Shown here: piece after piece, positions 103-63,537 of the stretch
How positions within the stretch are numbered: the stretch's first letter is position 1
Layout: each line of letters begins with the position of its first letter
From: Dromaius novaehollandiae
Taxonomy: Eukaryota > Chordata > Aves > Casuariiformes > Dromaiidae
Assembly (NCBI RefSeq): GCF_036370855.1
Contig: NC_088102.1
Span: 72,115,601-72,179,600 of the forward strand
Length of the DNA: 64,000 nt
Direction of reading: 5' to 3'
Made by a program: the position numbers and the translations under genes
The notes under the pieces: generated by a model
What the model was told of the DNA's origin: nothing
What the model saw: the letters and a program-made list of their open reading frames with translations, nothing else
The model's database searches: none

Positions 103-3100
103 ATGGCCACCATCAGCCAGCTCCTTGCCAGCGCACTGGGGCTGCTGCTGTGCGTGCAGCTCTGCAGGGGTGAGTGCCTGTGGGCTCCCCGGGGCTGGAG
201 CTGCCTGCCCTCATGCCGAGAGTGGGAGGCAGCCCTGGGGTTGGGGAGGCCACCGTGGGGCTGGGGTGGCCACCATGGGTCTGTGCGTGACCTGCTGGGA
301 GGGCTTCCTAGGGACACCAGTGGAGACACCCCACCCAGGCAGCCCTCGGGGACTCGCAGTGCCTGCGCTGCGCTGGGGACAGGGCTTATGCCAGTGGGGC
401 CAAACACTGAGCACATGTGGCAGGACATGTCCTCTGCTGTGTTCACCTTGCATCGGGTGCCGGACATTCAGGAGAATGTCCTGCAGTGCGCCGAGGCTTT
501 CCCCCCCAACAGCCATACATCGGGACCCAAAAGCCAGGCCCGCAGTGGGGAGTGGAGGCCATCAGGGCAGGGAACAGCTGTGGGACAGAGTCCCCCAGCC
601 AGCCTGGTAGGGCAGGCTGTGCCAGGTGCCCGTGGCACCATGCTGGGACTCCATGTCCTCCTTTGTGGTCCCACATGGGCACCCACAGGCACCGGGGAGC
701 TGCGACTGGTTAACGGAGGCAGCCGCTGCGCCGGTCGGGTGGAGATGAAGCACGAGGGCCAGTGGGGCACCGTGTGCAGCTATGACTTCGACTGGGATGT
801 CCGTGGGGCCTCCGTGGTCTGCAGGCAGCTGGGATGCGGCACCGTGGCCAGGGCCTCCCCGTACACCCCATTTGGGGCTGGGACTGGCCGGATTTGGCTG
901 CAACCCTTCTTATGCCGTGGCACTGAGACAGCGCTCCACAACTGCCCCCACTTCGGCTGGGGCCAGCACTACTGTGGCCATGACACAGATGTTGGGGTGA
1001 CGTGCTCAGGTGAGGGTTTGGGTGACCGTACTGTGGTGCAGCCCCTTGGCTGCTCACGGTTGGGAGCTGGCATGGCCATTACCAGGGACTTCCCAATGGG
1101 GACTGCCTGGGCACAGATGGGGTGCAGGAGTGGGCTGCAGTGCACCACACTCATGCCCTGAGGGCACCTCTAATGCAGATGCCGTGGAGCTGAGGCTGGT
1201 GAATGGAGGTGGTCCCTGTGCAGGCAGAGTGGAGGTGAAGCTGCGGGGCCAGTGGGGGACGGTGGCAGATGATGGATGGGACATGGAAGATGCCGAGGTG
1301 GTGTGTCAGCAGCTGGGCTGTGGCTCGGCCAAAAGCACACATGGCTGGACCTACTTTGGGAAAGCATCTGGACCAATTCATCTGGTTCGAGTTGACTGTC
1401 ACGGGGATGAATCTGCCCTCTGGGAATGCACTGTCCAGGGGTGGGGGCCATACACTGGCCCCCATGACTGGGATGTTGGCGTGGTCTGCCAAGGTAAGAG
1501 CTGTGGTGGTCACGGCCCAGGCTTTCTCGCAATTGGGGCCATCTGTGCCAGCACCATGGCTCTGGTGGCAGCCCCTCCACAACCCCCCAGCGTGTCCCAG
1601 GGACCCCCAAGAGATCCCAGACTCTCTCCTCCGGCAGGGTTTGTGCGGCTGGTTGGCGGAGACAGTGCCTGCTTGGGCCGCGTGGAGGTCAGGCAGGGCC
1701 GAGGCTGGGCCACCCTCTGCAAGGCCCACGTGGACCTCAACACCGCCCATGTCATCTGCAAGGAGCTGGGCTGTGGAGCAGCTCTGGCCATCACTGGGGC
1801 GGCACGCTTTGGGGCAGGAGCCGGGCCCATCTGGGACGGGGGCTTTGAGTGTGCAGGCAACGAATCCCTCCTGTCTGCCTGTGCCCGCAGGCTGCCCCAT
1901 GGCCAGGGCTGCACCCACACCAGTGACGCTGCCATCATCTGCTCCCGTAAGAGAGCAAGGCATGGGACAGAGGCTGCAGCGGGAGGCGGGGGAGACAGAC
2001 AGCAGGGACAGGGGTGCCCTGGGCAGGGACAGGGCAGGGAGGCTGCGGGCTGGCTTGTGGCAGTCCCTAGGGGCACGAAAAGGCAGCGGGGTGTGGGAGG
2101 CAGAGGGCTGCCATGCCTGCATGCCCCCACCATTGCAGAGCAGGGGACATGAGCCTTCATCTCCAGCGTCTTTTCTCCCTCCCAGCCTACACAGGCTTCA
2201 GGCTGGTGAACGGCAGCACAGAGTGCACAGGGCGGGTGGAGCTGGAGGCACGCGGCACCTGGGGCTCCCTCTGCGACGCCGGCTGGGACATGCCCGACGC
2301 CCAGGTGCTCTGCCACCACCTCGGCTGCGGCTTTGCAGCCTCTGTGCCTCGCAGAGTGTATTTTGGGACAGGGAGCGGCCCACTGTGGCAGGACACATTT
2401 CACTGCAGCGGGACCGAGTCCCACCTGGGAGAGTGCCCTGCCATGGCGCTGGGGACCCCCGCCTGCTCACTGGGCCACGCTGCCGCAGTCAATTGCTCAG
2501 GTGCGTGTGGGGCAGGTGGCGTCAGACAGGAGGGCCTGCTGTGGGGAGGGGACCCAGCACCCCAAATGGAGGGGTGCCCCTCCTTCTCACTGCCAGCAGG
2601 AGCTGTGGGGCACAGGGCCCATGTGGGGAAGCAGGGCCATGTCAGGGCAGGAGGAGGGCTGAGCCCACACACAGGGCAGCAGGCACATGGGCAGGAGGAG
2701 GGCAGTGGGGCCGTGCTGTCCCCCGGCAAGCCGTGGGGCTTCTTGGCACCCGACGGTCCCCACAGCGTCTCAGGACATCTCCCCTCTGTGTGGGGCCAGG
2801 TGGAACTGAACCCCTGCGGCTGGTGGACGGGGAGAGCCGCTGTGACGGGCGCCTGGAGGTGGCCCTGGGTGGGGCCTGGGGCCGAGTCCAGCAGTGGGAC
2901 GACAGCGGTGCCAGCGTGGTGTGCCGGCAGCTCCGGTGCGGCACGGTGCAGAAGGCCTACACCGCCCCAGTGCTGCAGCCAGGCTCGAGTCCCCTGGGGC
3001 TGAGCGGGCTCTGGTGTGCAGGCACGGAGACCCACCTGGCCCAGTGCAATGCCACGCTGCCCAGCGCCGTGCCATCGGGCCACACTGAGGAGGCGGTGGT

Positions 3101-6100
3101 TGTGTGCTCAGGTGAGTGTGCCAGGAAGGGCCCCAGGGTGCCGCAGGGGCCTGAGTGGCTGCCCCATCCCGGGCTGTCTCTGGCTGCAGGGAGCCGGCGG
3201 GTGCGGCTGGCAAGCGGCCCTGGGCGCTGTGCTGGGAGAGTGGAGGTCTACGTGCAGGGGACCTGGAGCCATGTCTGTGAGGATGCCTGGGACCTCTGGG
3301 ATGCCACCGTCGTCTGCCGCCAGCTGGGCTGCGGCAAGGCCCTGGCAGTGCCCGGCTCAGCCCGCTACGGCCGGGGCTCGGGGCCAGTGTGGCTGGGCGC
3401 TGGCGGGTGCTCTGGGGCCGAGGCGACACTCTGGGACTGCCCGGCCCCGGCCCCGGTTCCAGGGCAGCGTGGTTGCAAGCAGGGTGCTGGCGCAGCAGCC
3501 GTTTGCTCAGGTCAGTGGCATCCTCCACCGGGGCCAGAGGTAGCAGGGCTGTGGGACTGGCCGTGGTGCCAGCCCTCCCCACCGGCCTCCCTGACCAGCT
3601 CCCCACACCCTGGGCAGTCCCGGGGAGCGAGATGGTGCCTTTGCCCCACTGCCCCAGCGTGTCCGCTGCTTGGGGTGCTTCTCCTGGTGCCTCGGGGAGG
3701 TGGGTGGCGTGGTCGTAAGAGTGGGGGTGTTGCCCAGCCCTGGCTCAGCTGTGCCCCGCCCCGCTCATGCTATCCCCTTGCAGAGCTCACAGTCCTGCGG
3801 CTGGCGGGTGGCAGCAGCTGCACCGGGCGCCTGGAGGTCTTCTACAATGGGACGTGGGGCAGCGTGTGCGCCAATGGCACCAGCCCCGCCACAGCCGCCG
3901 TGGTGTGCCAGCAGCTGGGCTGCGGGGCCACGGGCCGACTGGCATCTGCCCCAGCAACCACACAGGGCTCAGGCCCTGCGTGGCTGGCCTGGGTGCAGTG
4001 CGAGCTGGGGACCGACTCCCTCTGGCACTGCCCCTCGGCACCCTGGCACCTGCAGCCCTGCGACTTCCCTGGGGACACCCACATCACATGTGACAGGGAC
4101 CCTGGCGGCACCAGAGTGACTCCCACGCCAGCCAGGGCAACTGGATGCCCAGACGGCACAGCTTGCACAGGTAGCTTTGCCAGCGCAGTGGCCCCAGGGA
4201 CCCTCCAGCTCGGGCTGGCGCAGCCCAGTGGAGGGGGAGCAGCTCTGGCAAGGAGACCCCAGCTGCCCGGGCACTGTCACCCCTCGGCTTCATGCAGGGG
4301 TTGGCCCTTTGGCCCAGGGGTGCCCTCCTTGGCCTCGCTGTCCTGCCAGCCACTCCCCTGCATCCCCCCATGCATCCACAGTGATGCAGGATGGGACAGG
4401 GTCCCCAGCCTCCCTCCAGCTCTGCCGTGTTTTGGTGTCCTCACAGGTGCCCACAGGAGCCCCGCGGGGGGTGCTGGGGCCATGCCAGTGCCCACCATCC
4501 TCTGCATCATCCTGGGGACCCTGCTCTGCCTGGCCCTGGGGGCTCTCGCCATGCAGGCATGGCGCACCATGGCTCAGCACAGAGGTGGGTCATGCCGGGG
4601 TTCTCCGGGGCTGAATCTACCAGGACGAGGCACCAGGGCAGAGCCAGTCAGGGCTGGGGGCCACTGATGGCTCCCGGGACTGCCTGGCCATGGCACGGCC
4701 CGGCTGCACAGGCTGGGGGCAGGCGTGGCGGTGGAGGCCAGGAGGCCAGTGCTGAAAGAGGGCAGGACGCGGCGCAGCACAAGGGCCAGGCAGGGGCACC
4801 AGAGCCACTCGGCAGATGGGGCACAGCAGTGGAGCTGGGCCACAGGGATATCGGGGGCACAGCTGGGGACCCCCACCATCCCATGTGCTGTGCCCATGGC
4901 CTGGGGTTATGGCTGCCCTTGCTTTCCAGGCCCTGGCAGAGCTGGGGACACAATCTCTGAGGCCGTCTATGAGGAGCTTGACTACACCCTGACGCCGGAG
5001 TACCAGGAGGTGCCCAGTGGCTCAGGTGCGTACACCCTGACTCCCGTGCTCGGGCCAGCCCAGCCCGGCGCCTCTTCCCGGGGAAGGAGGTCTCTGCGCT
5101 GAGGCCCCCACGCACCCGCTGCAGCAGCTGTGCTGGGAGCCCAGCCATGTGCTGGCCACGGGCAGCTGCAGTGCAGGTCTGTATCCTGGCCCCTCACAGT
5201 CCCCGCTGTGCGGTGAGGCTGTCCTGCCCAGGGTGCTGGCCAGGCCGTGGGACTGGGCAGCCTCTCCTAACGCCCCATCCTCCAGGCTCTCCATCAGAAG
5301 GCTCAGCAGCAAAGCTGCCGTATTACACCAGTGACAGTGTGGAGGTCAGCAGCCCCGCGACAGCAGCAGGTACGGGGCCGGAGTGCAGGGCCGTGCTGCA
5401 ACGCGCCCAGAGGTGCAGCCGTCATGCCACAGCCAGTGCCAGCAGGGGCCTCACATGGTGCCTGTGCAGCATGGCCACGTGGCCCTTGGTTATTTTCTGG
5501 GCCGACACTCATGGCTACGAATGAGCCTCTGGGCTGCTGGCTCCATCCGAGAGCTGGCAGCCCCATGCAGCAGGCCTGGCCCCCATGTCGGCACCCGCAG
5601 CTCCTTGGCCAGTGGGGGCTGGCACAACGCGACCCCTGCCCTGGCCTTCATTTCACTGCCCTGTCTGTTGCAGACACCCCTGCCCTGCCCAGGCATGGCC
5701 CCCCGGATGGGTATGATGATGCCGCGGCTGTCCTGCACCCAGGAGAGGCCGCTTCTCCAGGGTCGAGCGACGGAGATGTCTCCGAGGTCACGGTGCTGGA
5801 AGGTAAGAGGCACCACAGCCCATACAGCAGCACTGCCATTCCCAGCGCTGTGCCATCCCGCCGGGAGAGGTGGCTCCCCGTGCTCTATTGCGGCGGTGGG
5901 TGGTGCCTGGGCATGGCGGGGACCACTGGCCTGGACCTGGCAGCCGGGGGATGAAATGCCCCCTAGAGGCACCGGCCATGCTGTCCGCAGCGGGGAGCCG
6001 GCCCTCGCTGAGCCACCCGGAGCTGCCAGGAGCCACGACAGATGCACCAGCTTCAGCGCCCCGAGACATGGGCTACGACGATGTTGGTGTCAGTGGCCCC

Positions 6101-6115
6101 AGGACATCACTGTGA
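103..6115 (+). CDS. Gene 1: WC1/SCART/CD163-like receptor, seven SRCR domains, type I membrane protein
   Basis: Exons: 103-169, 689-1009, 1179-1493, 1638-1946, 2186-2500, 2800-3111, 3190-3510, 3784-4170, 4447-4584, 4930-5025, 5286-5369, 5674-5802, 5991-6115; all introns are phase 1 and GT-AG; 972 residues predicted. Residues 1-23 form a hydrophobic signal peptide. SRCR1 to SRCR7 each fill one exon (23-129, 130-234, 235-337, 338-442, 443-546, 547-653, 654-755). A Thr/Pro stalk follows to 782 and a transmembrane helix at about 797-821. The tail carries AVYEELDY (Tyr842, Tyr847), PDGYDD (Tyr902) and MGYDDVG (Tyr960). SRCR1, 3, 4, 6 and 7 have eight cysteines; SRCR2 and SRCR5 have six. Sequons occur in SRCR3, 4, 5 and 7. 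SRCR5 is two residues shorter than in other copies. By family knowledge this is a leukocyte surface receptor whose tail tyrosines are Src-kinase targets. Function and ligand are inferred only. From SRCR7 onward it is nearly identical to gene 4. Confidence 0.85.
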
Positions 6116-8395: not shown

Positions 8396-8461
8396 GAAAC
8401 CACAAGTGTAAGCCACACACATGCAGCCACAGGCAACAAGCAAGCCAACGCTGCTGTTACT

Positions 8462-8735
8462 GTGACACGGCTGTTTCAACCTCATGAAGAAGGACAAGCG
8501 CCACACACCACTGTGCTGCTGGGAGCTGCAGGGATGGGAAAGACAATGACAAGGAGGAAGATCACCATGGAGTGGGCAGGAGCAGTCCTTTATACACAGT
8601 TTGACTATGTTTTCTACCTCAACTGGAAAGAAATCAGCCCCACTACAGCAGGGAGTGCAGCACACTTGATTTCCAAGCTCTGTCATTGCCCCTACTTGGA
8701 CTCTTCCATCTGGGCTGGACCAGAAGTGCCTGGAG
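8462..8735 (+). pseudogene. NLRP-type NACHT domain fragment, copy 1
   Basis: The + frame from about 8462 reads like the start of an NLRP NACHT domain. It has LFQPHEEG and TTVLLGAAGMGKT (Walker A, 8522-8545), then RKITMEWAG, FDYVFYLNWKEIS and a helix ending at KLCHCP. NLRP proteins have the same order (TVVLQGAAGIGKT, ARKxMLDWA, FDYxFYINCRE). Walker B, the sensor motifs, the PYD and the leucine-rich repeats are not seen nearby, and the frame drifts into unrelated sequence. CR1 abuts it upstream. It is a relic of an NLR exon carried inside the SRCR array, retained also at 21975 and 49132. The open frame could persist simply because the copies are young. Confidence 0.7.
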
Positions 8736-10960
8736 CCTGCACTTGCACTCACTCCCCTGGCCTTCACAGTCTGGGTGGTTTTTTCCAGGCACAGCCCACA
8801 TGGACTCACGAGCCACCTGGGCCCTGCATGGCCAATGCCTTTTGCTCAGACAGCAAGCAGGTCCTGCAGCGTCCTAGTGGGATGCAAGTACGGAGTTGAA
8901 CTCTCTGGACTTGTGCACCCCCGAGCTAAAGAGAAACCTGAAACGAGAGCTCAAGGCCCCTGTGACCTTCTGCCCAACAAGAGCCGGCACAGAGCCTGGC
9001 TTGGGTCAGAATGGTTTGGGCTGGCCCTGTGGGACTCCTGCCACGTGCTTAACCCTGGCTCCCGTTCCCTGATTCAGAGCTGGAAAGCACTGAAACACAG
9101 ATATGGTTCACCTGAGCAGACACTGAGACAGGACAACCACAGTGTCCCTCTCTCGCCTGCACAGCCCTGGGTGCACCAGGGCTGCTTGGAGGCCAGTGTG
9201 GCAAACCCCATGAGCTGTGAGACTTTGGATACCTTCTGCCTCTTTTCCCCAGAAGCACCAGGGCAGTGAAAGCCATGGGCAGGGAGTGGGCATGGCAGCA
9301 GGGCTGTGGCCGTGCAGGCCCCCTGAGGTCGGATGCTGTGGGGCCGGGACAGTGTATCGCCATCGAGGTGGACCATGCCGTGTGGTCTCCGGTGGCAGTT
9401 CTTCTCTTTTTCTTGTTCGATTGAAAGACTGAACACATTGGGAGTAAAGGAAGAAACGTAGCAGGAGTTGGCTGCGCTCAAGGGAAGAAGGGAATTTTGC
9501 TACTGTCATACCGGTGGGGGAGGACGGTGGCATTATGGGTAGGCGTGCCTCAAAGGGAGGCCACGGCCTGTCTTCCTGCCTGCCACCAAGCGTTGGCCCC
9601 ATCCGAGACAGCAAGGCACACACTTTATGTCCGTGATTGGAGGCATCACCCACAAGGGGTACAAAGGAGGGTTGGGAAGAAAGCTGAAGGCATGTCTCTC
9701 AATGCTAAATATCCCTCTCTGGCTTCCCAACTGCTGCACTTTCATCTCTATAATCAGCTCACAGCTTTGGTACCTCCCTTGAATGTTCCGCCAGTTAAAC
9801 ACAGAAGGTCTACATGCTCAATGGTTACGCTGCATTAGTTTTCTATGCTGCTCTTTCCTCTCTATGTGGTCAGTGCATATGCTGCATGAGCTTTCTATGC
9901 CACTCTGGTCTCTCTGCAAGGCCTGCCGGCATTTGTACGCAGCCCATACCGGAATGCTGAGGTCTGACAAGCCCCTGCCGCTAGTCCACTTCCCGACGGC
10001 TTCTGTTGCTGTGACCTGCTACTCTTTCAACTAGGGAAGCAAGTAGCTATGCACTGAGCTTTGCAGCCAAGGTAGGATGTGTCCTGCGAGAGCCCTGACT
10101 CAGTTGCTGGTCTGCACCTCGTCCCTGGTGTCTGTACACAGTGGGAAAATCCCCACGCTGGGGCACTGGAGCTGTCTGTTGCACTGCAGCTGCAAAAAAT
10201 GTCCCCACGTGGCAGCTGAGCTTGCCTGGGCAGAGGAGGATTCCCACCAGCTGTGACGCAACTGTGGGCAGGTGCTGGCCACCCTCATCCCTGCCTTGGA
10301 AGGGGGTTCCGGGATGTTGGATGGAGGGTGCATTCCAAGGTGGAGCGAGGTGCTGGGAACTGCCCTGCCCTTGGGTGGGTGCTGCTGCCACAGCTTAGAG
10401 GAGGCCTGAGAGACCTGCAAGGCATTGCTGGGCTGAACTGCTTTGCTGGTACAGCCAGCCACGAGCACAGGTCCCCTTGACAACCAAATCCACCTAGCTA
10501 CCTACTGCAGATGCTGAAGCAGCCACCCTTCCAGGCGTTGTGTGGGAGGGAAACAAGGGGGCAGGGCTGGGGCCGTGCCTGATTCACTGGACCTGAAAAG
10601 GGCACAGACTGGAAGTGGCATCCTCCCATGTTCCCACTGCAGTCGGTGGGGAGAAACAGGCCATACAGGGGGGGAATGCAGGTGCAGGCTGGACTGAACC
10701 ATCCCGGGCGCTGTCTCCCTCTGCCCTCCCAGTTCTGCACCAGCACCTGCACTAGCAGGGAGCAGGGCCTGGCAGCTCGGCAGTGGCAGTGCAACCTCAG
10801 GCCAATGCCGCACAGGGTAAAGAAGCTCTTTGTGTCAGGAAGGCCTTGAAGTGGCCAGAGCTTTCCAGATCCTTTTGCCTTGGACTGAGGATTAAGTGCA
10901 TCTGCACAGGGCTGACAGCATGACACGACTGAAGCTGCCCTCCACTCTGCCTTGTGTTCA
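8736..10960. other. Inter-unit spacer, no gene recognised
   Basis: This 2.2 kb is shared with 22231-24420 and, in shortened form, with 37426-38860 and 49406-51070. Short open frames exist on both strands but shift between copies. One sub-segment near 9540-9660 resembles part of the 3' flank near 6840-6960, which suggests an old repeat. I can assign no function. Confidence 0.4.
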
Positions 10961-11530
10961 CGGAAGCACAGAAGCACGCAACGGCAGAGGTTGGAAGGGA
11001 CCTCTGGAGATCATTGTGGTCAATGCCCCTGCCCATGAGGGTCATCTAAAGCCCATCGCCCAGAACCCTATCCAGATGCCTCTGCAATGTCTCCTAGGAC
11101 GGAGACCCCACAATCTCCCCAGGAAACCTGTTCCCGGGCTCTGTCACACTCACAGGAAAGTTTTTCCCTCTGGGCAGACGGAACTTCCTGGGTTTCAGGT
11201 TGTACCCGTTGCCTCTCGTCCTATCGCTAGGCACCACTGAAAAGCTCTTGACACCCTCCCTTCAGATATTTATGCCCACTGATAAAGATCCCCCCACAGG
11301 CTTCCCTTCTCCACCATGAACAGGCCCAGTTCTCTCAGCCTTTCCGCGTGTGACAGATGCTCCCATCTCTTAAGCATCGTAGGAGCCAAATGGGCCTTGA
11401 CATTCCGAGCCCCATCCTTGCCTGCTTGGACAACATCCCTCCATTCCTCCCACATTTCCTGAGGCTGGCTCCACACCAGCCCTTCCTCAACCTTTCGCAC
11501 TTCTCCTTAACCATGGTGTCAAACAGGTGT
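10961..11530 (-). repeat. CR1 LINE fragment with internal deletion
   Basis: The + strand begins with the reverse complement of the CR1 3' end (GGTTGGAAGGGACC type), followed by the CR1 3'UTR. It then jumps directly to the start of ORF2: the minus-strand frame runs from EEWRDVVQAGKDGARNVKAHLA into ERLRELGLFMVEKG. Most of the reverse transcriptase is missing between them. The same deletion is present at 24421, 38861 and 51071, so it predates the array. Confidence 0.8.
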
Positions 11531-11627
11531 CACACAGCATTGGTGTGCTGTTAGAGTAGCCCTACTGATGAGGAGCTCCTAAGAAATCGAGCTCCCTTTC
11601 AAGCTGACTGTGCTTCCTCTTCGTTTA

Positions 11628-11678
11628 GATTACAAACAAAAATACAAAGCGCACATGACAAGACAGTTCCTGCAGGCA
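11628..11678 (+). pseudogene. FISNA-like exon start of an NLRP gene, copy 1
   Basis: After a pyrimidine-rich acceptor ending at TTTAG, 17 codons read DYKQKYKAHMTRQFLQ. NLRP3-type proteins open their FISNA domain with a DYRKKYRKYVRSRF-like peptide. The similarity is lost afterwards. The piece is short, so the call rests on position after an acceptor, motif spacing, and the presence of NACHT fragments in the same units. Confidence 0.4.
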
Positions 11679-12860
11679 GTTATGATTCTAATGCACTGCT
11701 GGACCCTCCTCTCCTGCCTGAGCCCTTTCCCTAAGCACAGCAGCCTGGGAGACCTTGTTGGCAAAGCTCCTCCTCCCTTCCTCCTCCTCTATGTGCCCTT
11801 TTTCACTGGAGTTCGGGCCAGCTTATCCAGGCCATCCTCCTGAGACATCAGCTCATCTCCTGAGCCTCACGACAGACCACTCTTGTGCTCGGCGGAGGCT
11901 CTCCTTCATTCCCTGCTGGCTGTGCTGCACTTAGGCAGATGCTGGGGAGGCAAAGCCCTACCAGTGACAACACCCATGCAGAGCGATATTCACCTGGGGG
12001 ATGTCCCCACTCCTACCCAAAATGTCCCAAATGACCAGCAGGCTCAAGGGAACCAACACCGGTCTCCCATATCCCTCAGATTTGTCCAAGAGCCTCTCAG
12101 TTGCTCTGGATTTGCTCCAGGTCTCTGTGGCACTGGCACTGCAAAGAGATACTGATACACAGAAGCCTAGCGTTATCATACTCTGAAATGCAGCTGGCTG
12201 AGCAGAAACAGAAGCAGGTGGTGAGATGCTGGCTGTTCAGCAGGCCCAGCAGATGCCTGTGCTCTGACACACAGCAGCACTCGGGCTGCTGCAGCTGCTT
12301 CCCCTTGGGGGCTGGTGTGCAGTGGGGGAACCACCTCCTTCCTGCCTCAGAACTGTGTGGGGTGAGTGTGGCAGTGTGGGAACTGTGGGGCTGAGGGGCA
12401 CAGGCCTGCAGGCAACTGGATAGCACCTCCATCTGCCCGCAAGCTGCTGTGAGGGGCCCAGGCCCTCCTGCCAATGTGCCATGGAGCCTGGGGCTGGGCT
12501 TGACTTGGTGCCACCCTGGAGCTTTCTAGCCCAGAGCCAGCCCCAGTGCCTGCCCCATGTGGAGGGCTGCAGTGCGGAGGGACCTGGTGCCAGAGGTCAG
12601 CCCCACAGCAGCAAGGAGGCTGCAGCAGATGCTGACCCCTGCAGAGGACAGTCCCTGTCAAGGAAGGGCTCTTGCCACACTCCCTGGCACAGTGTGACAC
12701 ACCCAGACCCATGCGGGCTCAGGCATAGGGAGGGCCCGCACACCCTGCACCCACTGCAGCACCCAGGCAGGGAGTCCTGCTCAGATCATCATCAGGCTCC
12801 CCACGGGGACAGCCAGGCAGGCACCCACCCACTGGTGGGGAGCGCGTGATGGCAGAAGTG
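11679..12860. other. Distal upstream region of gene 2
   Basis: This is present before genes 2 to 5 (compare 25936-26895, 39575-40765 and 51790-52975) and is well conserved from about 12180 onward. No exon with consistent phase was found. It is likely to hold distal regulatory sequence for the downstream gene, but I see no specific motif that proves this. Confidence 0.4.
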
Positions 12861-13104
12861 GAGCCGAGACGCATATATGGGCATGCACGGGGATGGAGAA
12901 GGTTGTTGGAGGCTGGGGCTCTGTCAGATGGGAGATAACCCTCCTGATAACATCTCAAAAGGTGCCTAATGCCGTTGATTGGCTGCCCCGGCAGCGGGGC
13001 CTGCGCTTCTGCCTATATATTGCCCCCCCCACCACAGCAGCCTCTGGTGGCCCAGGAGGCAAGCAGGAGCTGGGGACTGCAGCATTGGGCAGGAGGTGTT
13101 TGGG
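12861..13104 (+). promoter_or_regulatory. Gene 2 proximal promoter: GATA, GATA, inverted CCAAT, TATA
   Basis: AGATAA (12933-12938), TGATAA (12945-12950), ATTGG as an inverted CCAAT (12978-12982) and TATATAT (13014-13020) stand in fixed order upstream of the ATG at 13105. The same elements at nearly the same spacing precede genes 3, 4 and 5. Paired GATA sites suit haematopoietic expression (for example GATA3 in T cells). That is inference. Confidence 0.6.
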
Positions 13105-19360: not shown

Positions 19361-19597
19361 GCACGATGGGGCCACGCTGCAGCAGTCCCTGGGGATGCAC
19401 GTGGTGCCATGGGGCTCTGCCCCCACGCAGCCACGGCCCAGCCTCAGAGGGCGTTGGCTGCCTGATTGACCACCCACTCAGGCCTGCCAGGGCCTACGGG
19501 CACTGTGGAGATCTGCCTCCATCATCCCGCCAACACAGCCCTCTGGCCATGCCAGACTTTGTGTGTCCTTCCACTGTGCATTTCTCTCTTTTCTATT

Positions 19598-21969: not shown

Positions 21970-21974
21970 ACAAG

Positions 21975-49405: not shown

Positions 49406-51070
49406 CTGGAGCCAGCACTTGCACTTGCTTCCCTGGCCTTCACGGTCTGGGTGGTATTTTTTGACAGGCACAGTCCACATGGACTCACGAGCCACCTGGG
49501 CCCTGCATGGCCAATGCCTTTTGCTCAGACAGCAAGCAGGCCCTGCGGTGTCCTAGTGGGATGCAAGTACGGAGTTGCACTCTCTGGACTTGTGCACCCC
49601 TGAGGTAAAGAGAAACCTGAAACGAGAGCTCAAGGCCCCTGTGACCTTCTGCCCAAACAAGAGCTGGCACAGAGCCTGGCTTGGGTCAGAGTGGTTTGTG
49701 TGGGCCCTGTGGGACTCCTCCCATGTGCTTAACCCTGGCTCCCGTTCCCTGATTCAGAGCTGGAAAGCACTGAACCACAGATGTGGTTCACCTGAGCAGA
49801 CACTGAGACAGGACAACCAAAGTCTCCCCCTGTCACCTGCACTGCCCTGGGTGCACCAGGGCTGCTTGGAGGCCAGTGTGGCAAACCCCGTGAGCTGTGA
49901 GGCTTTGGATACCTTCTGCCTCTTTTCCCCAGAAGCACCAGGGCAGTGAAAGCCATGGGCAGGGAGTGGGCATGGCAGCAAGGCTGTGGCCGTGCAGGCC
50001 CCCTGAGGTCAGATGCTGTGGGGCCGGGACAGTGTGTTGCCATCGAGGTGGACCATGCCGTGTGGTCTCAGGCGGCAGTGAATACCTAGGGTCATTTTAG
50101 CAGTTCCTCTCCTTTTCCAGCTTGATTGAAAGATTGAACACATTGGGATTAAAGGAAGAAACGCAGCAGCAGTTGGCTGCACTCAAGGGAAGAAGGGAAT
50201 TTTGCTGCTGTCATACCGGTGGGGGAGGACGGTGTCGTTATGGATGGGGGTGCTTTGAATCTCCATGCTCAGGCACACTAGATGCCTGTTGTGCTGCAGC
50301 TGGGGAAAAATGTCCCCACGTGGCAGCGGGGCTGTCTGGGCAGGGAAGGATTCCCACCAGCTGTGAAGTGACTGTGAGCAGGTGCTGGCCACCTTCGTTC
50401 CTGCCCTGGCAGAGGGCTCCCGGATGTTGGATGGAGGGTGCATTCCGAGGCGGAGCGAGGTGCTGGGAACTGCCCTGCCCTTGGGTGAGGGCTGCTGCCA
50501 CAACTTAGAGGAGGCCCGAGAGACCTGCAAGGCATTGCTGGGCTGAACTGCTTTGCTGGTACAGCCAGCCACGAGCACAGGTCCCCTTGACCCCCCCAAT
50601 CCACCTAGCTACCTACTGCAGATGCTGAAGCAGCCACCCTTCCAGGCGTTGTGTGGGAGGGAAACAAGGGGGCAGGGCTGGGGCCGTGCCTGATTCACTG
50701 GACCTGAAAAGGGCACAGACTGGAAGTGGCATCCTCCCATGTTCCCACTGCAGTCGGTGGGGAGAAACAGGCCATACAGGGGGGGAATGCAGGTGCAGGC
50801 TGGACTGAACCATCCCAGGCACTGTCTCCCTCTGCCCTCCCAGTTCTGCACCAGCACCTGCACTAGCAGGGAGCAGGGCCTGGCAGCTCGGCAGTGGCAG
50901 TGCCACCTCAGGCCAATGCCGCACAGGGTAAAGAAGCTCTTTGTGTCAGGAAGGCCTTGAAGTGGCCAGAGCTTTCCAGATCCTTTTGCCTTGGACTGAG
51001 GATGAAGTGCATCTGCACAGGGCTGACAGCATGGCACGACTGAAGCTGCCCTGCGCTCCGCCTTGTGTTC
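49406..51070. other. Inter-unit spacer, no gene recognised
   Basis: Counterpart of 8736-10960 with a deletion of about 0.6 kb near 50260-50290. The flanks on both sides match unit A. Confidence 0.4.
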
Positions 51071-53216: not shown

Positions 53217-56200
53217 ATGGCCACCATCAGCCAGCTCCTTGCCAGCGCACTGGGACTGCTGCTGTGCGTGCAGCTCTGCAGGGGTGAGTGCCTGTGGGCT
53301 CCCCGGGGATGGAGCTGCCTGCCCTCACGCTGAGAGTGGGAGGCAGCCCTGGGGTTGGGGAGGCCACCGTGGAGCTGGGGTGGCCACCATGGGTCTGTGC
53401 GTGACCTTCTGGGTGGGCTTCTCAGAGGCACCAGTGGAGGCACACCACCTGGGCAGCCCTCGGGGCCCACGGTGCCTGCACTGTGCTGGGGACAGGGTTT
53501 TTGCAGTGGGGCCAAACACTGAGCACGTGGCAGGACATGTCCTCTGCTGTGTTCACCTTGCATCGGGTGCTGGACATTCAGGGTCTGGATATGGCCCTAC
53601 CTTTCTTCACACCTGGTGTCCTGCAGTGCACCCAAGGCTTTTCCACCCACACAGCCATATGCCAGGGTCCAAAAGCCAGGCCCGCAGTGGGGAGTGGAGG
53701 CCATCAGGGCAGGGAACAGCTGTGGGACAGAGCTCCCTGGCCAGCCTGGCAGGGCATGCTACACCAGACAACACTGACACCATGCTGGGACTCCATGTCC
53801 TCCTTTATGGTCCCACATGGGCACCCACAGGCACTGGGGAGCTGCGACTGGTTGACGGAGGCAGCCGCTGCGCCGGTCGGGTGGAGGTGAAGCACGAGGG
53901 CCAGTGGGGCACCGTGTGCAGCTATGACTTCATCTGGGATGTCCGTGGGGCCTCCGTGGTCTGCAGGCAGCTGGGATGTGGCACCGTGGCAAGGACTTCC
54001 CCATACATGCCGTTCGGGGCAGGGGCTGGCCGGATTTGGCTGCAACCTTTTCTATGTCGTGGCAGTGAGACAGCACTCCACCACTGTCCCCACTACGGCT
54101 GGGGCCAGCACTACTGTGGCCATGACACAGATGTTGGGGTGACGTGCTCAGGTGAGGGATCAGGATACTCTGCCGGGGAGCAGACCCTTGGCTGCGTGCA
54201 GTTGGGAGATGGCATGGCTATGCCCAGGGCCTCCCCACTGGGGCCTGCCCAGGCACAGATGGGGTACAAGAGTAGAGCTAGAGTGCAGCACCCTCATGCC
54301 CTGAGGGCACCTCTAATACAGATGCTGTGGAGCTCAGGCTGGTGAATGGAGGTGGTCCCTGTGCAGGCAGAGTGGAGGTGAAGCTGCGGGGCCAGTGGGG
54401 AACGGTGGCAGATGACGTATGGGACATGGAGGATGCCGAGGTGGTGTGTCAGCAGCTGGGCTGTGGCTCGGCCAAAAGCGCCCATGACTCGACCCACTTT
54501 GGGAGAGGGTCTGGACCTATTCAACTGGCTCTTGTGGACTGTCGCGGGGATGAGTCTGCACTCTGGGAATGCACTGTCCCGGGATGGGGGCCATACCCTG
54601 GCCGCCATGACTGGGATGTTGGTGTGGTCTGCCAAGGTAAGAGCCATGGGGTCCCTCCAGGCTGCCTCGCACTCAGGCCCCGCTATGCCAGCACCAGGAT
54701 TATGGGGGCAACCCACCTGCAAGCCCCCAGCGTGTTCCACAGACCCCCAAGAGACCCCAGACTCTCTCCTCCGGCAGGGTTTGTGCGGCTGGTCGGCGGG
54801 GACGGCGCCTGCTCGGGCCGTGTGGAGGTCAGGCAGGGCCGAGGCTGGGTCACCCTCTGCAAGGCCCACGTGGACCTCAACACCGCCCACGTCATCTGCA
54901 AGGAGCTGGGTTGCGGAGCAGCTCTGGCCATCACTGGGGCAGCACGCTTTGGGGCAGGAGCCGGGCCCATCTGGGACGGGGGCTTTGAGTGTGCAGGCAA
55001 CGAATCCCTCCTGTCTGCCTGCGCCCGCAGGCTGCCCCATGGCCAGGGTTGCACGCACAACAGCGACGCTGCCGTCATCTGCTCCCGTAAGAGAGCAGGG
55101 CGTGGGGCAGAAGCTGCAGCGGGAGGCGCGGGGAGACGGGCAGCAGGGACAGGGGTGCCCAGGGCAGGGACAGGGTAGGGAGGCTGTGGGCTGGCTTGTG
55201 GCAGCCCCCAGGGGTGCGGGAAGGCAGCGGGGTGTGGGAGGCAGAGGGCTGCCATGCCTGCGTGCCCCCACCATTGCAGAGCAGGGGACATGAGGCCTTC
55301 ATCTCCAGCACCCTTTTCTCCCTCCCAGCCTACACGGGCTTCAGGCTGGTGAACGGCAGCACAGAGAGCACAGGGCAGGTGGAGCTGGAGGCACGCGGCA
55401 CCTGGGGCTCCCTCTGCGATGCCGGCTGGGACATGCCCGATGCCCAGGTGCTCTGCCACCACCTCGGCTGCGGCTTTGCCGCCTCCGTGCCCCGTGGAGG
55501 GTATTTTGGGACAGGGAGCGGCCCGCTGTGGCAGGACACATTTCACTGCAGCGGGACCGAGTCCCACCTGGGAGAGTGCCCTGCCATGGCGCTGGGGATC
55601 CCTGCCTGCTCGCCGGACCACGCTGCTGCAGTCAATTGCTCAGGTGCGTGTGGGGCAGGTGGCGCCAGCCACAAGGGCTTCCTGGGGGGAGGGGACCCAG
55701 CACCCCAAAAAGGAAGGGTACCCCACTCCCCCTACTGCCACCAGGAGCTGTGGGGCACAGGGCCCATCTGGGGAAGCAGGGTCATGTCAGGGCAGGAGGA
55801 GGGCTGAGCCCAGGCATAGGGCAGCAGGCACATGGGCAGGAGGAGGGCAGTGGGGCCGTGCTGTCCCCCAGCATCCTGTGGGACTCCTTGGCACCCCACG
55901 GTCCCCACAGAGCCTCAGGACATCTCCCCTCTGTGCGGGGACAGGTGGCACTGAACCCCTGCAGCTGGTGGACGGGGAGAGCCGCTGTGACGGGCGCCTG
56001 GAGGTGGCCCTACGTGGGGCCTGGGGCCGAGTCCTGGCACAGCAGTGGGATGCCAGCAGTGCCAGCGTGGTGTGCCGGCAGCTCCGGTGCGGCACGGTGC
56101 AGAAGGCCTATGCTGCCCCAGTGCTGGGGCCAGGCTCGAGCCCCCTGGGGCTGAGCGGGCTCCGGTGTGTGGGCACGGAGGCTCGCCTGGCCCAGTGCAA

Positions 56201-59158
56201 CTCCACGCTGCCCAGCGCTGTGCCGCCGGACCATGCCGAGGAAGCGGCAGTTGTGTGCTCGGGTGAGTGTGCCGGGAAGGGCCCCGGAACACTGTGGGGG
56301 CCCGAGCGGCTGCCCCAACCCAAGCTGTCTCTGGCTGCAGGGAGCCAGCGCGTGCGGCTGGTGAGTGGCCCTGGGCGCTGTGCTGGGAGAGTGGAGGTCT
56401 ACGTGCAGGGGACCTGGAGCCGCGTCTGCGAGGACACCTGGGACCTGTGGGACGCCGCTGTCGTCTGCCACCAGTTGGGCTGCGGCGAGGTCCTGGCAGT
56501 GCCCGGCTCGGCCCGCTACGGCCGGGGCTCGGGGCCAGTGTGGCTGGGTGCTGGCGCCTGCTCCGGGGCCGAGGCGACACTCTGGGAATGCCCAGCCCCG
56601 GCACCAGCCCCAGCCCTGGCCCCGGGGCAGCGTGGCTGTAAGGAGGGTGCTGGTGCGGCAGCCATCTGCTCAGGTCAGCACCGCGCTCCACCAGGGCCAG
56701 GGCCAGCGGGGCTGTGGGACCGGTTGTGGCATCAGCCCTCCCGACCGGCCTCCCTGCCCACCTCCCCACACCCTGGGCAGTCCAGGGAGTGAGACGGCAC
56801 CTTCGCCCCACTGCCCTGCCGTGTCCACTCCTTAGGATGCTTCTCATGGTGACCCGGGGAGGTGGGCGGAGTGGCCGGGACAGCAGGGGTGTTGCCCAGC
56901 CCCGCCTGAGCTGTGCCTACGCCCCCATGCTACCCCCTTGCAGAGCTCACAGCCCTGCGGCTGGCAGGCGGCAGCAGCTGCACCGGGCGCCTGGAGGTCT
57001 TCTACAATGGGACGTGGGGCAGTGTGTGCGCCAACGGCACCAGCCCTGCCACAGCCGCTGTGGTGTGCCAGCAGCTGGGCTGTGGGGCTGGGGGCCGGCT
57101 GTCACCTACACCCACAACCACACAGGGCTCAGGCCCCGCGTGGCTGGCCTGGGTGCAGTGCGAGCTGGGGGCCGACTCCCTCTGGCACTGCCCCTCGGCA
57201 CCCTGGCAGCTGCAGCCCTGTGACTCCCCTGGGGACACCCACATCTTGTGCGACAGGGAGCCTGGAGGTACCAGAGCAACTCCCACATCAGCCACGGCAA
57301 CCAGCTGTCCAGATGGCACATCCTGCACAGGTAGCTCTGCCTGCACAGGGCAGCGCGGTGGCCCCAGGGATCCTCCAGCTCGGGGTGGTGCAGCCTCTCT
57401 GTCCCGCCAGCCACTCCCCTGCATCCCGCTGTGCGTCCACAGTGATGCAGCATGGGACATGGCCAGACTCCCTCCAGCCGTGCAGCTCGTGTCGGTGTCG
57501 TCGCAGGTGCTCACAGGACCCACACGGCAGGGGCTGGATCCATGCCAGTGCCCACCATGCTCTGTATCGTCCTGGGCACCCTGCTCTGCCTGGCCCTGGG
57601 GACCCTCGCTGTGCAGGCATGGCGTGCCATGGCTCAGCACAGAGGTGGGTTGTGCCGGTGGTCTCTGGGGCTGAAGCTACTAGGACGAGGAGTCAGGGCA
57701 GAGCCAGTCAGGGCTGGGGGCTGCTGATGGCCCTGGGGACTGCCTGGCCATGGGGCAGCCTGGCTGCACAGGCTGGGGGCAGGCGTGGCAGTGGAAGCCA
57801 GGAGGCCAGTGCTGAGCGAAGGCAGGACCCGGCGCAGCACAGAGGCCAGGCAGGGGCACCAGAGCTGCTCGGAGGATGGGGCAGAGCAGTGGGGCTGTGC
57901 CACAGGGTTATCAAGGTCACAGCTGGTGACCCCCACCATCCCATGTGCTGCTCCCACAGCCTGGGGTTATGGCTGCCCTTGCTTTCCAGGCCCTGGCAGA
58001 GCCATGGACGCAATCTCCGAGGCCGTCTATGAGGAGCTCGACTACACTCTGATGCCGGAGTACCAGGAGGTGCCCAGTGGCTCAGGTGCATGCACCCTGA
58101 CTCCCGTGCTCAGGCCAGCCCAGCCCGGTGCCTCTTCCTGGGGAGGGAGGTCTCTGCACTGAGACCCTCACGCACCCATTGCTGCAGCAGCCGGGCTGAG
58201 AGCCCGGCCACGTGCTGACCATGGGAAGCTGCAGAGCAGGGCTGTATCCTGACCCCTCACAGTCCCCGCTGTGTGGCGAGGCTGTCCTGCCCAGGGTGCT
58301 GGCCAGCCTTTGAGGCTGGGAAGCCTCCCCTAATGCCCCATCGCGCAGGCTCGCCTTCAGATGGCTCAGTGACAAAGCTCTCGTATTACACCAGTGACAG
58401 CGTGGAGGCCAGCAGCCCCACGACAGCAGCAAGTACAGGGCTGGGGTGCAGAGCCGCAACCCTCGCGCCGCAGCCGGTGCCAGCAGGGGACTCACATGGT
58501 GCCTGGGCAGCATGGCCACGTGGCGCTCAGTTATTTTCTGGGCCGGCACTCAAAGCTGGGGCCGCACCTCCTGGCTGCTGACTCCATCCGAGAGCTGGCA
58601 TCCCAATGCAGCTGGCCCCCATGTCGGCACCCGCAGCTCCATGGCCAGTGGGGGCTGGCACTACACGACCCCTGCCCTGGAACTTCATTTCACTGCCCTG
58701 TCTGTCGCAGACACCCCTGCACTGCCCAGACACGACCCCTTGGACGGGTACGACGATGCCACGGCCGTACAGCACATGGGAGAGGTCGCTGCTCCGGGGC
58801 CGAGCGAAAGCGATGGAGATGTCTCCGAGGTGGCAGCACTGGGAGGTAAGAGGTGCCGCAGCCCACACAGCAGCACTGCCCTTCCCAGCGCTGTGCCATC
58901 CCGCTGGGAGAGGCGGCTCCCCCGTGCTCTACCACGGTGGTGGGCAGTGCCTGGGCACAGGGGGAGCCCTGGCCCTGGCCTGGCAGCCGGGGGAAGAAAC
59001 GGCCCCTAGAGGCACCAGCCATGCTGTCCCCAGTGCGGAGTCCATCCTCGCTGAGCCACTTGGATCTGCCGGGAGCTGCGACAGATGCACCAGCCTCAGC
59101 ACCCCGGGATGCGGGCTATGACGATGTTGGTGCCAGCGGCCCCGGGACATTGCTGTGA
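53217..59158 (+). CDS. Gene 5: WC1/SCART-like seven-SRCR receptor lacking a cysteine in SRCR4
   Basis: Exons: 53217-53283, 53831-54151, 54322-54636, 54778-55086, 55329-55643, 55945-56262, 56341-56673, 56944-57330, 57507-57644, 57990-58085, 58349-58432, 58711-58845, 59034-59158; 980 residues, all open. From the promoter to the transmembrane exon it tracks gene 2; its tail is the intact type. SRCR4 reads STESTGQVE where every other copy has STECTG, so cysteine 1 is lost and its partner cysteine 4 (HHLGCG) is left unpaired. The donor after exon 58349-58432 is AA before GTACAG instead of AG, which also changes the junction residue from Asp to Asn. Cytoplasmic exon 3 is two codons longer (PSESDGD). 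Tail motifs are AVYEELDYTLMPEYQEV, LDGYDDATAV and AGYDDVGASG. Confidence 0.83.
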
Positions 59159-60004: not shown

Positions 60005-60463
60005 ACTGGGCACCAGTGAAAAGAGTCTGGCCCCATCCTCTTCACACACTCCCTTCACATAGTTATACTAATCAATAAAAATCCCCCCACTCAGGCTTCC
60101 CTCCTCCACCATGAACAGGCCCAGCTCTCTCAGCCTTTCCTCGCATGACACATGCTCTCGTCCCTTCAGCATCTTAGGAGCCCTTTGCTGCACTCGCTCC
60201 AGGAGCTCCATGTCTCTCTCATCTTGAGGAGCCCAGAACTGCACATAGCACTCCAGACGTGGCCTCCCCAGGGCTCAGCAGAGGCACAGGATCACCTCCC
60301 TCCACCTGCTGACAACACTCTGCCTAATGCAGCCCAGCATACCCTTGGCCTTCTTGGCCACAAGGGCACAGTGCTGGCTCACAGTCAGCTTGCTGTCCAC
60401 CAGGCTTCCCAGGTCCTTCTCTGCACGGCTGCTTTCCAGCAGGTCAGCCACCACCCTCTACTG
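60005..60463 (-). repeat. CR1 LINE fragment cut at a recombination junction
   Basis: Antisense CR1 3'UTR and the end of reverse transcriptase, stopping at CCCTCTACTGC. All other copies continue through reverse transcriptase at that point. Here it is joined to receptor-gene sequence. Confidence 0.8.
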
Positions 60464-60897: not shown

Positions 60898-63537
60898 AGC
60901 TCACAGCCCTGCGGCTGGCGGGCGGCAGCAGCTGCACCGAGCGCCTGGAGGTCTTCCACAACGGGACGTGGGGCAGCGTGTGCGCCAACGTCACCAGCCT
61001 CGCCACAGCTGCTGTGGTGTGCCGGCAGTGGGGCTGAAGGGCCACAGGCCGGCTGGCATCTGCCCCCGCAGGCACACAGGGCTTGGGCCCCGCATGGCTG
61101 GCCTGGGTGCAGTGTGGGCTGGGGACCGACTCCCTCTGGCACTGCCCCTCGGCACCCTGGCAGCTGCAGCCCTGTGACTCCCTCGGGGATATTCACACCA
61201 TGTGTGATGGGGAGCCTGGCAGCACCAGAGGGACTCCCACATCAGCCATGGCAACCAGCCGCCCAGATGGCACAGACGGCATAGGTACCTCTTCCCGCGC
61301 AGAGCAGCACGGTGGCCCCAGGGACCCTCCAGCTCCGGCCAGCGCAGCCCAGTGGAGGGGGAGCAGCTCTGGCAAGGAGATCCCAGCTGCCTGGGCACTG
61401 ATACCCCTCGGCCTCATGCAGGGGTTGGCCCCCAGGCACAGGGGTGCCCTCCTTGGCCTCCCTGTCCCTCCTGCCACTCCTCTGCACCCCCCGTGCATCC
61501 ACAGTGATGCAGGATGGGACAGGGTCCTCAGCCTCCCTCCAGCTCTGCCGCGTGTTGGTGTCGTCGCAGGTGCCCACAGGAGCCCCACAGCGGGTGCTGG
61601 GGCCATGGCAGTGCCCGTCATCCTCTGCATCATCCTGGGGACCCTACTCCGCCTGGCCCTGGGGGCCCTCGCCGTGCAGGCAAGGCGCGCCATGGCTCGG
61701 CACAGAGGTAGGTCGTGCCGGGGGTCTCTGGGGCTGAAGCTACCAGGAGGAGGCGCCAGGGCAGAGGCTGTCTGGGCTGGGGGCTGCTGATGGTTCCTGG
61801 GACTGCCTGGCCACGGGGCGGCCCAGCTGCACAGGCTGGAGGTGGGTGTGGCAGTAGAGGCCCGGAGGCCAGTGCCGAGCAGGGGCAGGACCCAGCGCAG
61901 CACGAGGGTCAGGCAGGGGCGCCAGAGCCACTCGGTGGATGGGGCAGAGCAGTGGAGCTGGGCCACAGGGTTATCGCGGGCACAGCTGGTGACCCCCACC
62001 ATCCCACATTCTGTGCCCACGGCCTGGGGTTACGGCTGCCCTTGCTTTCTAGGCCCTGGCAGAGCCACGGATGCAATCTCTGAGGCCGTCTATGAGGAGC
62101 TCGACTACACCCTGACACCGGAGTACCAGGAGGTGCCCAGTGTCTCAGGTGCATGCACCCTGGGACAGGAGCTTCAAGTGTTCAGGCAACGAATCTCTCC
62201 TGTCTGCCTGCACCCACAGACTGCCCCATGGCCAGGGCCGCACACTCAGCACCGATGCCAGTGTTGTCTGCTCTCATAAGAGCACGGAGCACGGGGAAAA
62301 GGCTGCAGAGGGAGGCACTGGGAGACGGGCAGTGGGGACAGGGGTGCCCTGGGCAGGGACGGGGCATGGAGGCTGTGGGCTGGCTTGTGGCACCCCCCAG
62401 GGGTGTGGGGAGGCAGAGGGATGCGGGAGGCAGAGGGCTGCAATGGCCTGGCAGGCCATGACTCCCAACAGCCCCTCCCTCGCCAGCCCGGCTCAGCCCA
62501 GTGCCTCTCCGTGGGGAGGGAGGTCCCTGTACTGAGGCCCCCACGCACCCGCTGCAGCAGCTGGGCTGGGAGCCCGGCCACGTGCAGGCCGTGGGGAGCT
62601 GCAGCGCAGAGGCATCTCCTGGCCCTCCACAGTCACCGCTGTGTGGCAAGGCTGTCCTGCCCAGGGTGCTGGCCAGGCCATGGGTCCAGGCAGCCTCCCC
62701 TAACGCCCCATCCTCCAGGCTCCCCGTCGGAGGGCTCAGTGATGAAGCTGCCATATTGCACCTTCCACAATGTGGAGGCCACCAGCCCCGGGACAGCAGC
62801 AGGTACGGGGCCGGGGCGCAGGACCGTGCTGCCGTGTTCCCAGAGTTGCAGCCCTCTGAGGCAGCTGGTGCCAGCAGGGGCCTCACATGGTGCCTTGGCA
62901 GCATGGCCATGTGGCCCTCGGTTATTTTCTGGCCTGGCACTTGTGGCTGGGGACAAGTCTTGGGGCTACTGGCTCCATTCGAGAGCTGGCAGCCCCATGC
63001 AGCAGGCCCCAACGTTGGCACCCCCAGTTCCACAGCCAGCGGGGGCTGGCATAACGCGGCCCCTGCCCCCGCCTTTGTTTCACTGACCATCTGTCGCAGA
63101 CAACCCTGCCCAGGCACGACCTCCCAGATGGGTACAATGATGCCGCGGCCACGCTGCACCCTGGAGTGGCCCCTGCTCAGGGGCCGAGCAAGGAAGGTGT
63201 CTCCGAGGCAGCGGGGCTGGGAGGTAAGAGGCACCACAGCCTGCGTGGCAGTGCTGCTGTTCCCAGCACCGTGCCATCCCACCAGGAGAGGCAGCTTCCC
63301 CGCGCTGTGCCGCAGTGGTGGGCAGCGTGTGGGCATGGGGGGGATCCCCAGGCGGGTCCTGGCAGCCAGGGGATGAAACAGCCACTACAGAAACTGGCCT
63401 TGCTGACCCCAGTGGGGAGCCCACCCTCGCTGAGCCACCTGGAGCTGCCGGGAGCTGTGACAAACGCCCTAGCCTCAGCGCCTGGGGACATGGGCTACGG
63501 CGACGTTGGCGTCAGCAGCCCCGGGACATCGCTGTGA
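60898..63537 (+). pseudogene. Gene 6: 5'-truncated copy with nonsense in SRCR7
   Basis: Recognisable exons are SRCR7 plus stalk (60898-61284), transmembrane (61570-61707), and cytoplasmic 62053-62148, 62719-62802, 63100-63223 and 63413-63537. There is no promoter, signal exon or SRCR1 to 6. In SRCR7 the conserved LGCG has become W-G-stop (TGA 61035-61037). The helix has an Arg in its middle (GTLLRLALG). Cytoplasmic exon 3 has the same five-base loss as gene 2. From about 61800 onward it is nearly identical to the gene 2 tail, including the SRCR3 insert. A dead member, but one that could donate sequence by gene conversion. Confidence 0.8.
62165..62446 (+). repeat. SRCR3 exon/intron insert, second occurrence
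   Basis: Same insert as at 17990-18270, at the same intron position and with the same ends, so it was copied together with the gene 2-type tail. Confidence 0.72.

Follow-up and report, generated by a model that had tools for sequence, protein, structure and literature searches.

A large tandem array of probable WC1/SCART-like receptor genes in the emu genome

The closest described systems to the genes reported here are the WC1 and CD163c-alpha (SCART) receptors. In cattle, receptors of this kind assist gamma-delta T cells in the recognition of microbes. For the chicken, the available portions of Herzig 2010 (PMC2906472) give at least 18 WC1/CD163c-alpha-like genes (GgCD163_1 to _18), of which seven have a domains of the WC1 type, and a WC1-type tyrosine motif in all CD163c-alpha-like tails but one. 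The hypothesis of a service of these arrays to gamma-delta T cells, and with it the suggestion of a shared WC1-like system in birds that a preliminary description of our locus put forward, was already printed there. Thirteen WC1 genes are given for cattle in the available text of PMC3511184, which also cites a Southern-blot estimate of more than 50 for sheep; CD163 is described as one gene across eutherian mammals in the portions of PMC2906472 that concern it. Here we describe a 64-kb stretch of the emu genome (C5:72115601-72179600, hereafter the window) that holds five copies of a receptor gene with seven SRCR domains, and the array to which these copies belong.

The window belongs to a tandem array of genes that probably encode type I transmembrane receptors from the WC1/CD163c-alpha (SCART) branch, with group B SRCR domains and a likeness to T-cell co-receptors. 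This assignment is based on the pairing of the third, fourth and seventh SRCR domains with domains of CD163, on a tail with a YEEL motif, and on the presence of four tail exons.

Gene copies in the window and beyond

Five gene copies (c1 to c5) lie head to tail on the + strand of the window. Each has 13 exons with phase-1 introns, in the order E1 (signal peptide), D1 to D7 (SRCR domains, one exon each, with a length divisible by 3), TM (transmembrane) and the tail exons T1 to T4. The exons of c4 were placed by hand and used as the template, which was mapped by homology onto the other copies, and each boundary was checked.

c1, 103-6115, + strand: gene copy with 13 exons, open, 972 amino acids
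c1 exons E1 to D7 (+): E1 103-169, D1 689-1009, D2 1179-1493, D3 1638-1946, D4 2186-2500, D5 2800-3111, D6 3190-3510, D7 3784-4170
c1 exons TM to T4 (+): TM 4447-4584, T1 4930-5025, T2 5286-5369, T3 5674-5802, T4 5991-6115
c2, 13105-19360, + strand: gene copy with 13 exons, 907 amino acids; ectodomain, TM, T1 and T2 open, frameshift in T3 leading to an early stop in the tail
c2 exons E1 to D7 (+): E1 13105-13171, D1 13721-14041, D2 14212-14526, D3 14668-14976, D4 15219-15533, D5 15833-16150, D6 16229-16561, D7 16832-17218
c2 exons TM to T4 (+): TM 17395-17532, T1 17878-17973, T2 18543-18626, T3 18923-19046, T4 19236-19360
c3, 27145-33192, + strand: gene copy with 13 exons, open, 975 amino acids; GC donor after D1 (28081)
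c3 exons E1 to D7 (+): E1 27145-27211, D1 27763-28080, D2 28240-28554, D3 28700-29008, D4 29226-29540, D5 29840-30157, D6 30236-30562, D7 30831-31217
c3 exons TM to T4 (+): TM 31503-31640, T1 31986-32081, T2 32374-32457, T3 32758-32886, T4 33068-33192
c4 (template), 41001-47022, + strand: gene copy with 13 exons, open, 974 amino acids
c4 exons E1 to D7 (+): E1 41001-41067, D1 41619-41939, D2 42099-42413, D3 42559-42867, D4 43085-43399, D5 43699-44016, D6 44095-44415, D7 44690-45076
c4 exons TM to T4 (+): TM 45353-45490, T1 45836-45931 (carrying AVYEELDY and YQEV), T2 46192-46275, T3 46580-46708, T4 46898-47022
c5, 53217-59158, + strand: gene copy with 13 exons, open, 980 amino acids
c5 exons E1 to D7 (+): E1 53217-53283, D1 53831-54151, D2 54322-54636, D3 54778-55086, D4 55329-55643, D5 55945-56262, D6 56341-56673, D7 56944-57330
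c5 exons TM to T4 (+): TM 57507-57644, T1 57990-58085, T2 58349-58432, T3 58711-58845, T4 59034-59158

This bears out the five near-complete 13-exon genes with seven SRCR domains, a transmembrane helix and a tyrosine tail that the preliminary description had proposed, with the qualification that the tail of c2 is frameshifted; its T3 (exon 12) is out of frame and translates as DNPAQARPPRWVQ followed by a stop. The exon ends had all been placed on splice sites, which are generally GT/AG but include the GC donor of D1 in c3. The lengths of the exons, said to agree between copies, in fact vary in D1 (318/321), D5 (312/318), D6 (321/327/333) and T3 (124/129/135). In c4, Pfam gave seven matches to SRCR (PF00530) and no family besides SRCR and the related SRCR_2 at E <= 0.001, and the peak of hydrophobicity past residue 30 (21-residue window, mean 2.44) falls within the TM exon. 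A simple pattern for SRCR cores, which misses many of them, matched 16 times on the + strand and 0 times on the minus strand. No tRNA or Rfam elements were found in the window.

The array runs past both window ends, a point that goes beyond the preliminary description. When the genome (1.468 Gb, 271 contigs) was searched with the D7 exon, the interval C5:72,093,616-72,605,523 contained at least 37 full-length copies free of stops, and at least four more with one TGA (three of the four outside the window) plus pieces; these counts are minima, since scoring took in the best 150 of 853 candidates. Measured between the first and the last start, the 37 stop-free copies cover 511,521 bp, and their median spacing is 13,781.5 bp. 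The 4 kb on either side is still mostly array-type sequence, so that the edges of the array would lie further out. Contig C5 (77.9 Mb) also carries RAG1, which in the chicken is on chromosome 5. In view of the estimate for sheep, we do not claim that the emu array is the largest. Twenty of the 32 other stop-free copies were fetched from outside the window (labelled L0xx); together with the window copies they are the 25 that come first among the 37, and they form the set of 25 copies referred to below.

Tail motif and domain relationships

The TM exon and the tyrosine tail are present in 25/25 copies. The tail has ~150 residues, with tyrosines in YEEL, YQEV, YYTS, GYDDA and GYDDV. YEELDY and YQEV occur in 25/25 copies; AVYEELDY, reported earlier for the window and confirmed in the four-exon tail of its five genes, occurs in 24/25. 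GYDDA and GYDDV are altered in four c2-type copies (c2, L046, L051, L056). YEEL fits the motif Y-(Q/E)-(D/C/E)-(I/L) as defined in PMC2906472, according to which phosphorylation of YEEL in WC1 is needed for potentiating T-cell activation and a YEEL-type motif is common to the chicken family members.

The predicted protein would consist of seven extracellular SRCR domains, a short stalk, one helix and the tyrosine tail. The string of SRCR domains may bind microbial or host surface ligands, and the protein may be recruited to an activating receptor, probably that of gamma-delta T cells. The YEEL tyrosine would then be phosphorylated, which would strengthen the signal of the activating receptor. 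We infer the ligand class, the cell type, the phosphorylation and the co-receptor role from WC1.

Domain trees were built with CD163 SRCR1-9, DMBT1 and CD5L as references, and a second time without SRCR4 and CD5L and with three copies kept. In both trees D7 pairs with CD163 SRCR8 (support 100/99 and 100/100), D3 with SRCR5 (91/81 and 83/82) and D4 with SRCR6 (92/89 and 88/90), and the order of D3, D4 and D7 matches the order of SRCR5, 6 and 8 in CD163. By position, D4-D7 correspond to c-n-d-e of the printed chicken cassette c-n-d-e-d', minus d'. Eight cysteines are kept in five of the seven domains, while D2 and D5 are without both C2 and C7 in 25/25 copies, a loss that presumably removes one whole disulphide, by group B pairing. 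Some platypus domains of this family also lose cysteines, including C2 with C6 and C7, as stated in the available portions of PMC2906472.

Several observations weigh against this assignment. D6 pairs weakly with SRCR7 (87/65) in one tree and takes no single placement among SRCR7, SRCR9 and DMBT1 in the second, with bit scores of 106.6 for SRCR7, 101.1 for the best DMBT1 chain and 97.9 for SRCR9. D1 and D2 lie only weakly near CD163 SRCR1-3 in the trees (D1 near SRCR1/3), and D5 stands alone, without a CD163 partner. D3 scores with SRCR5 over SRCR7 by one bit (108 vs 107), and a long-branch warning from the tree tool means that the grouping of D3 with SRCR5, as well as the placement of SRCR8, may be false. 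A membrane-proximal d' domain is absent, as D7 is e-type and is followed by the TM exon; according to the available portions of PMC2906472 this domain is present in 'most' molecules of the family, and is hence typical rather than defining. We considered whether a d' exon had been missed, and rejected this because the intron between D7 and TM (176-285 bp in the five window copies) is too short for an SRCR exon of ~310 bp. D1 is not the most variable domain, unlike the N-terminal domain of WC1; mean nonsynonymous divergence (dN) was 0.038 for D1, 0.059 for D2 and 0.055 for D5 in 15 of the 25 copies. Furthermore, the sequence references were CD163, DMBT1 and CD5L, with WC1 and SCART, including their diagnostic a and n domains, known from their printed description. 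Finally, D2 and D5 have their best BLAST score with DMBT1 (60% and 43% identity, among 11 reference domains). The WC1/SCART-like character proposed earlier is thus partly supported, by the CD163 pairing of D3, D4 and D7, the YEEL motif and the four tail exons, while the lack of d' and the moderate variability of D1 speak against a close copy of WC1.

The scores of D2 and D5 would suit pattern-binding proteins of the DMBT1 or LOXL type, either epithelial or secreted. The hallmarks of such proteins are CUB and zona pellucida domains, or a lysyl oxidase domain, none of which Pfam detected in c4. The TM exon and tyrosine tail found throughout the 25 copies also argue against this explanation, which we regard as very improbable. 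A grouping of the SRCR domains with DMBT1-type families had been named beforehand as evidence to the contrary, and on this point the outcome is divided, with D3, D4 and D7 on the side of CD163 and D2 and D5 scoring best with DMBT1.

An alternative explanation might be that these are macrophage-type scavenger receptors like CD163A, or a membrane relative of the avian haemoglobin binder PIT54, which clear haemoglobin or debris and are not T-cell co-receptors. In a PDB search with the ectodomain, CD163 came out on top and PIT54 was the next different protein, in line with this alternative. However, the order of the PDB matches depends in part on how many domains each chain has, and there was no WC1 or SCART chain among them. 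A CD163A-type receptor would be expected to have nine SRCR domains with h-i-j-k and a YREM tail, whereas the emu copies have seven SRCR domains and no YREM in the translated tails. The available portions of PMC2906472 report that the CD163A-type k domain was not found in chicken, and that the tails of CD163A contain YREM and show no significant identity to WC1-type tails; the emu tail carries YEEL. A scavenging function therefore seems improbable, and we favour a receptor of the WC1/SCART branch.

Selection, duplication and probable exchange among the copies

In total, 19 of the 25 copies read open from start to stop (4/5 in the window and 15/20 of those fetched), including L043 and L049, in which the GT of the D3 donor is lost. 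Five copies (c2, L045, L050, L051 and L056) are open through T2 and then share a 5-base deletion at the same T3 site, and L046 combines this deletion with an ectodomain stop at residue 345, which brings the T3 frameshift to 6/25 copies. The splice dinucleotides are GT/AG at 594 of the 600 sites, the other six being four GC donors and two AT donors; the 24 sites of c4 had been hand-placed on such dinucleotides, and the remaining 576 were mapped by homology, with T3 acceptors assigned to a nearby CAG.

The ratio of nonsynonymous to synonymous substitution (dN/dS) was estimated from the 15 copies that remained after near-duplicates were dropped (L046-L053, L056, L057); of these 15, c2 was set aside for T3 only, and L045 was kept throughout. 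It was 0.24 for the ectodomain (D1-D7) and 0.28 for the tail, compared to 1.52 and 1.65 for the ectodomain in the wrong frames. For T1+T2+T4 the ratio was 0.26 in the right frame, and 1.67 and 0.90 in the wrong frames. T1 alone gave 0.20, and the highest mean of any exon was <=0.36. The splice sites, together with the difference between right and wrong frames of the ectodomain, show that the gene structure is not chance, and the copies are under purifying selection.

Copy number is a separate matter, and two further explanations that concern it are compatible with a WC1/SCART-like receptor. The first is mostly passive amplification, in which few copies would be expressed and their number would stem from unequal crossing over within a block rich in GC and repeats, and not from selection for a repertoire. 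The high protein identity between window copies (82.8-93.2%), the low dN/dS of every exon and the six broken frames would all be in line with this, as would the keratin genes of this genome, which likewise form large tandem arrays. In contrast, the 19 open copies with 13 exons (L043 and L049 minus the D3 donor GT) and the purifying selection across copies that is apparent from the wrong-frame controls argue against it, and we regard passive amplification as possible though unlikely. Given the low protein diversity and the purifying selection, dosage or modest ligand variation is better supported than a strongly diversified repertoire.

The second explanation is that the copy number is partly an assembly artefact, with two haplotypes laid in tandem. 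All seven block pairs at constant offsets (79,870; 64,942-64,943; and 188,985 bp) are 99.54-99.98% identical over ~8 kb, as might be expected of haplotypes; these are L041/L047, L042/L048, L043/L049, L045/L050, L046/L051, and L052 and L053 with the window. An eighth pair, L039/L044, is 97.9% identical and falls outside these offsets. However, two neighbouring blocks have the same order yet differ by one unit of ~14.9 kb, the other fetched copies are 92.1-99.3% identical to the window in their best alignments, and the longest copy-to-copy alignments within the window reach <=96.5%. We interpret the seven pairs as recent block duplications, tandem-laid haplotypes being less likely, and consider it improbable that an artefact of this kind contributed to the copy number.

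The identity pattern suggests that the array grew via unequal crossing over, in units of ~13.8 kb plus larger blocks, and that exchange between copies would keep them alike and put similar ectodomains on different tails. In c2, the stretch 10148-17987 is 96.5% identical to c5, while 17281-19823 is 96.3% identical to the last fragment in the window. Similarly, L043 resembles c5 in D1-D3 (98.5%) and L042 in TM-T4 (99.3%), the tail of L043 being of the c1 type. Hence, the copies are mosaics, in which similar ectodomains sit on different tails. One might speculate that they form a paired-receptor system, among the largest WC1-like arrays known, in which near-identical ectodomains on either full tails or tails truncated after YEEL and YQEV would turn one ligand into two signalling outcomes. 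The basis for the truncated tails is the shared T3 deletion, with one of its six copies also broken in the ectodomain, and we put this idea forward as a doubtful one.

The window also contains incomplete copies and pieces:

35922-37000, + strand: broken copy, with D4 35922-36236, an internally deleted D5 36535-36699 and a partial D6 36778-37000
60898-63537, + strand: broken 3' half copy, with an in-frame stop in D7 60898-61284, followed by TM 61570-61707 and T1 62053-62148
62719-63537, + strand: rest of the tail of this half copy, with T2 62719-62802, T3 63095-63223 (homology-mapped, start region identical to c2) and T4 63413-63537
19889-20333, + strand: tail remnant 3' of c2, with a stop in T3 19889-20018 and an open T4 20209-20333
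17985-18097, + strand: part of a D3 exon within the T1-T2 intron of c2, 79.8% identical to D3 positions 194-307
62160-62273, + strand: part of a D3 exon within the T1-T2 intron of the last fragment, 81.6% identical to D3 positions 194-307

The two broken copies had been recognised before; the tail remnant and both D3 pieces are additions. The D3 piece common to c2 and the last fragment links both tails by descent.

Between the genes, an exact tandem duplication of 146 bp at 34406-34697 (2.0 copies, 100% match) is either very recent or an assembly effect. A relic of a NACHT domain, split between frames, lies at 8462-8817, 21971-22299 and 49132-49496 in the window, and again at L060:1353-1685 (PF05729, 6.7e-9). 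It sits in the intergenic part of the repeat unit and is co-duplicated with the receptor genes. Fragments at 60071-60457 on the minus strand resemble what we take to be the tail of a CR1 reverse transcriptase.

Elsewhere in the genome, several contigs carry a further set of SRCR genes with near-equal scores and 50-51% identity to D7, at C5:77.55 Mb, C8:0.25 Mb, C9:35.87 Mb, C10:30.16 and 30.26 Mb, C48:0.50 Mb and C86:0.19 Mb. All seven listed D7-like matches have one internal TGA, where the alignment may overrun the exon end. On C5 the copy lies ~0.37 Mb short of the contig end, and on C8 it lies 0.25 Mb from the contig start, which suggests subtelomeric spread. A separate tandem array at C6:44.59-44.63 Mb gives SRCR matches of equal score, mostly every 2.46 kb, and is perhaps one long many-domain gene. 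Contig C32 (2.4 Mb) has a dense SRCR cluster on both strands at 1.15-1.45 Mb. The genome has at least 150 matches to the Pfam family Keratin, presumably avian keratin (from the best 150 of 211 candidates), with large tandem arrays, many of their genes with equal scores, at C10:25.76-26.20, C22:5.28-5.49 and C2:168.47-168.59 Mb.

Comparison with known systems

Among the titles and abstract openings that we found on such receptors, none describes a bird array of comparable size. Mouse SCART1/2 (CD163c-alpha), compared by description, share the Y-(Q/E)-(D/C/E)-(I/L) motif but comprise only two genes. Human CD163 (PDB 9nb5, 8xmk and others) provides the partners of D3, D4 and D7. It differs in having nine SRCR domains and a YREM tail (PMC2906472), whereas the emu receptors have seven and YEEL, and in that its e-type SRCR8 is followed by SRCR9, whereas in the emu D7 is followed by the TM exon.

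Bovine WC1, as covered by the available text of PMC3511184 and PMC5949365, is likewise a multigene array of group B SRCR receptors with a single-exon domain 1 and YEEL. According to the same portions of PMC3511184, type I WC1 has four tail exons, as in the emu, and WC1-4/7 and WC1-9 have similar ectodomains on different tails, as in the emu array. In contrast, bovine WC1 has 11 or 6 SRCR domains ending in d', and its N-terminal a domain is the most variable (PMC3511184, PMC5949365, same portions).

The chicken genes, compared by description, resemble those of the emu in their multigene expansion, their YEEL-type motif and their SRCR domains, with a transmembrane helix in some of the proteins. 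D4-D7 follow the chicken cassette by position, without its d'. The emu array differs in its number (at least 37 stop-free D7 copies vs at least 18 genes) and in having seven SRCR domains with the e-type beside the membrane, a layout that one of the 18 chicken genes may share. Nine chicken SRCR genes are placed on microchromosome 16 in the available text of PMC4988538, while the emu array is on the contig with RAG1. The kind of receptor is thus already known from the chicken; what differs is the copy number, the lack of d', the tail frameshift in 6/25 copies, and the similar ectodomains on different tails. An array that combines purifying selection with mosaic tails offers a good opportunity to find out whether selection acts on copy number, ectodomain type or tail type, and touches the question why cattle, chicken and platypus have many WC1-like genes, and mouse and human one or two.

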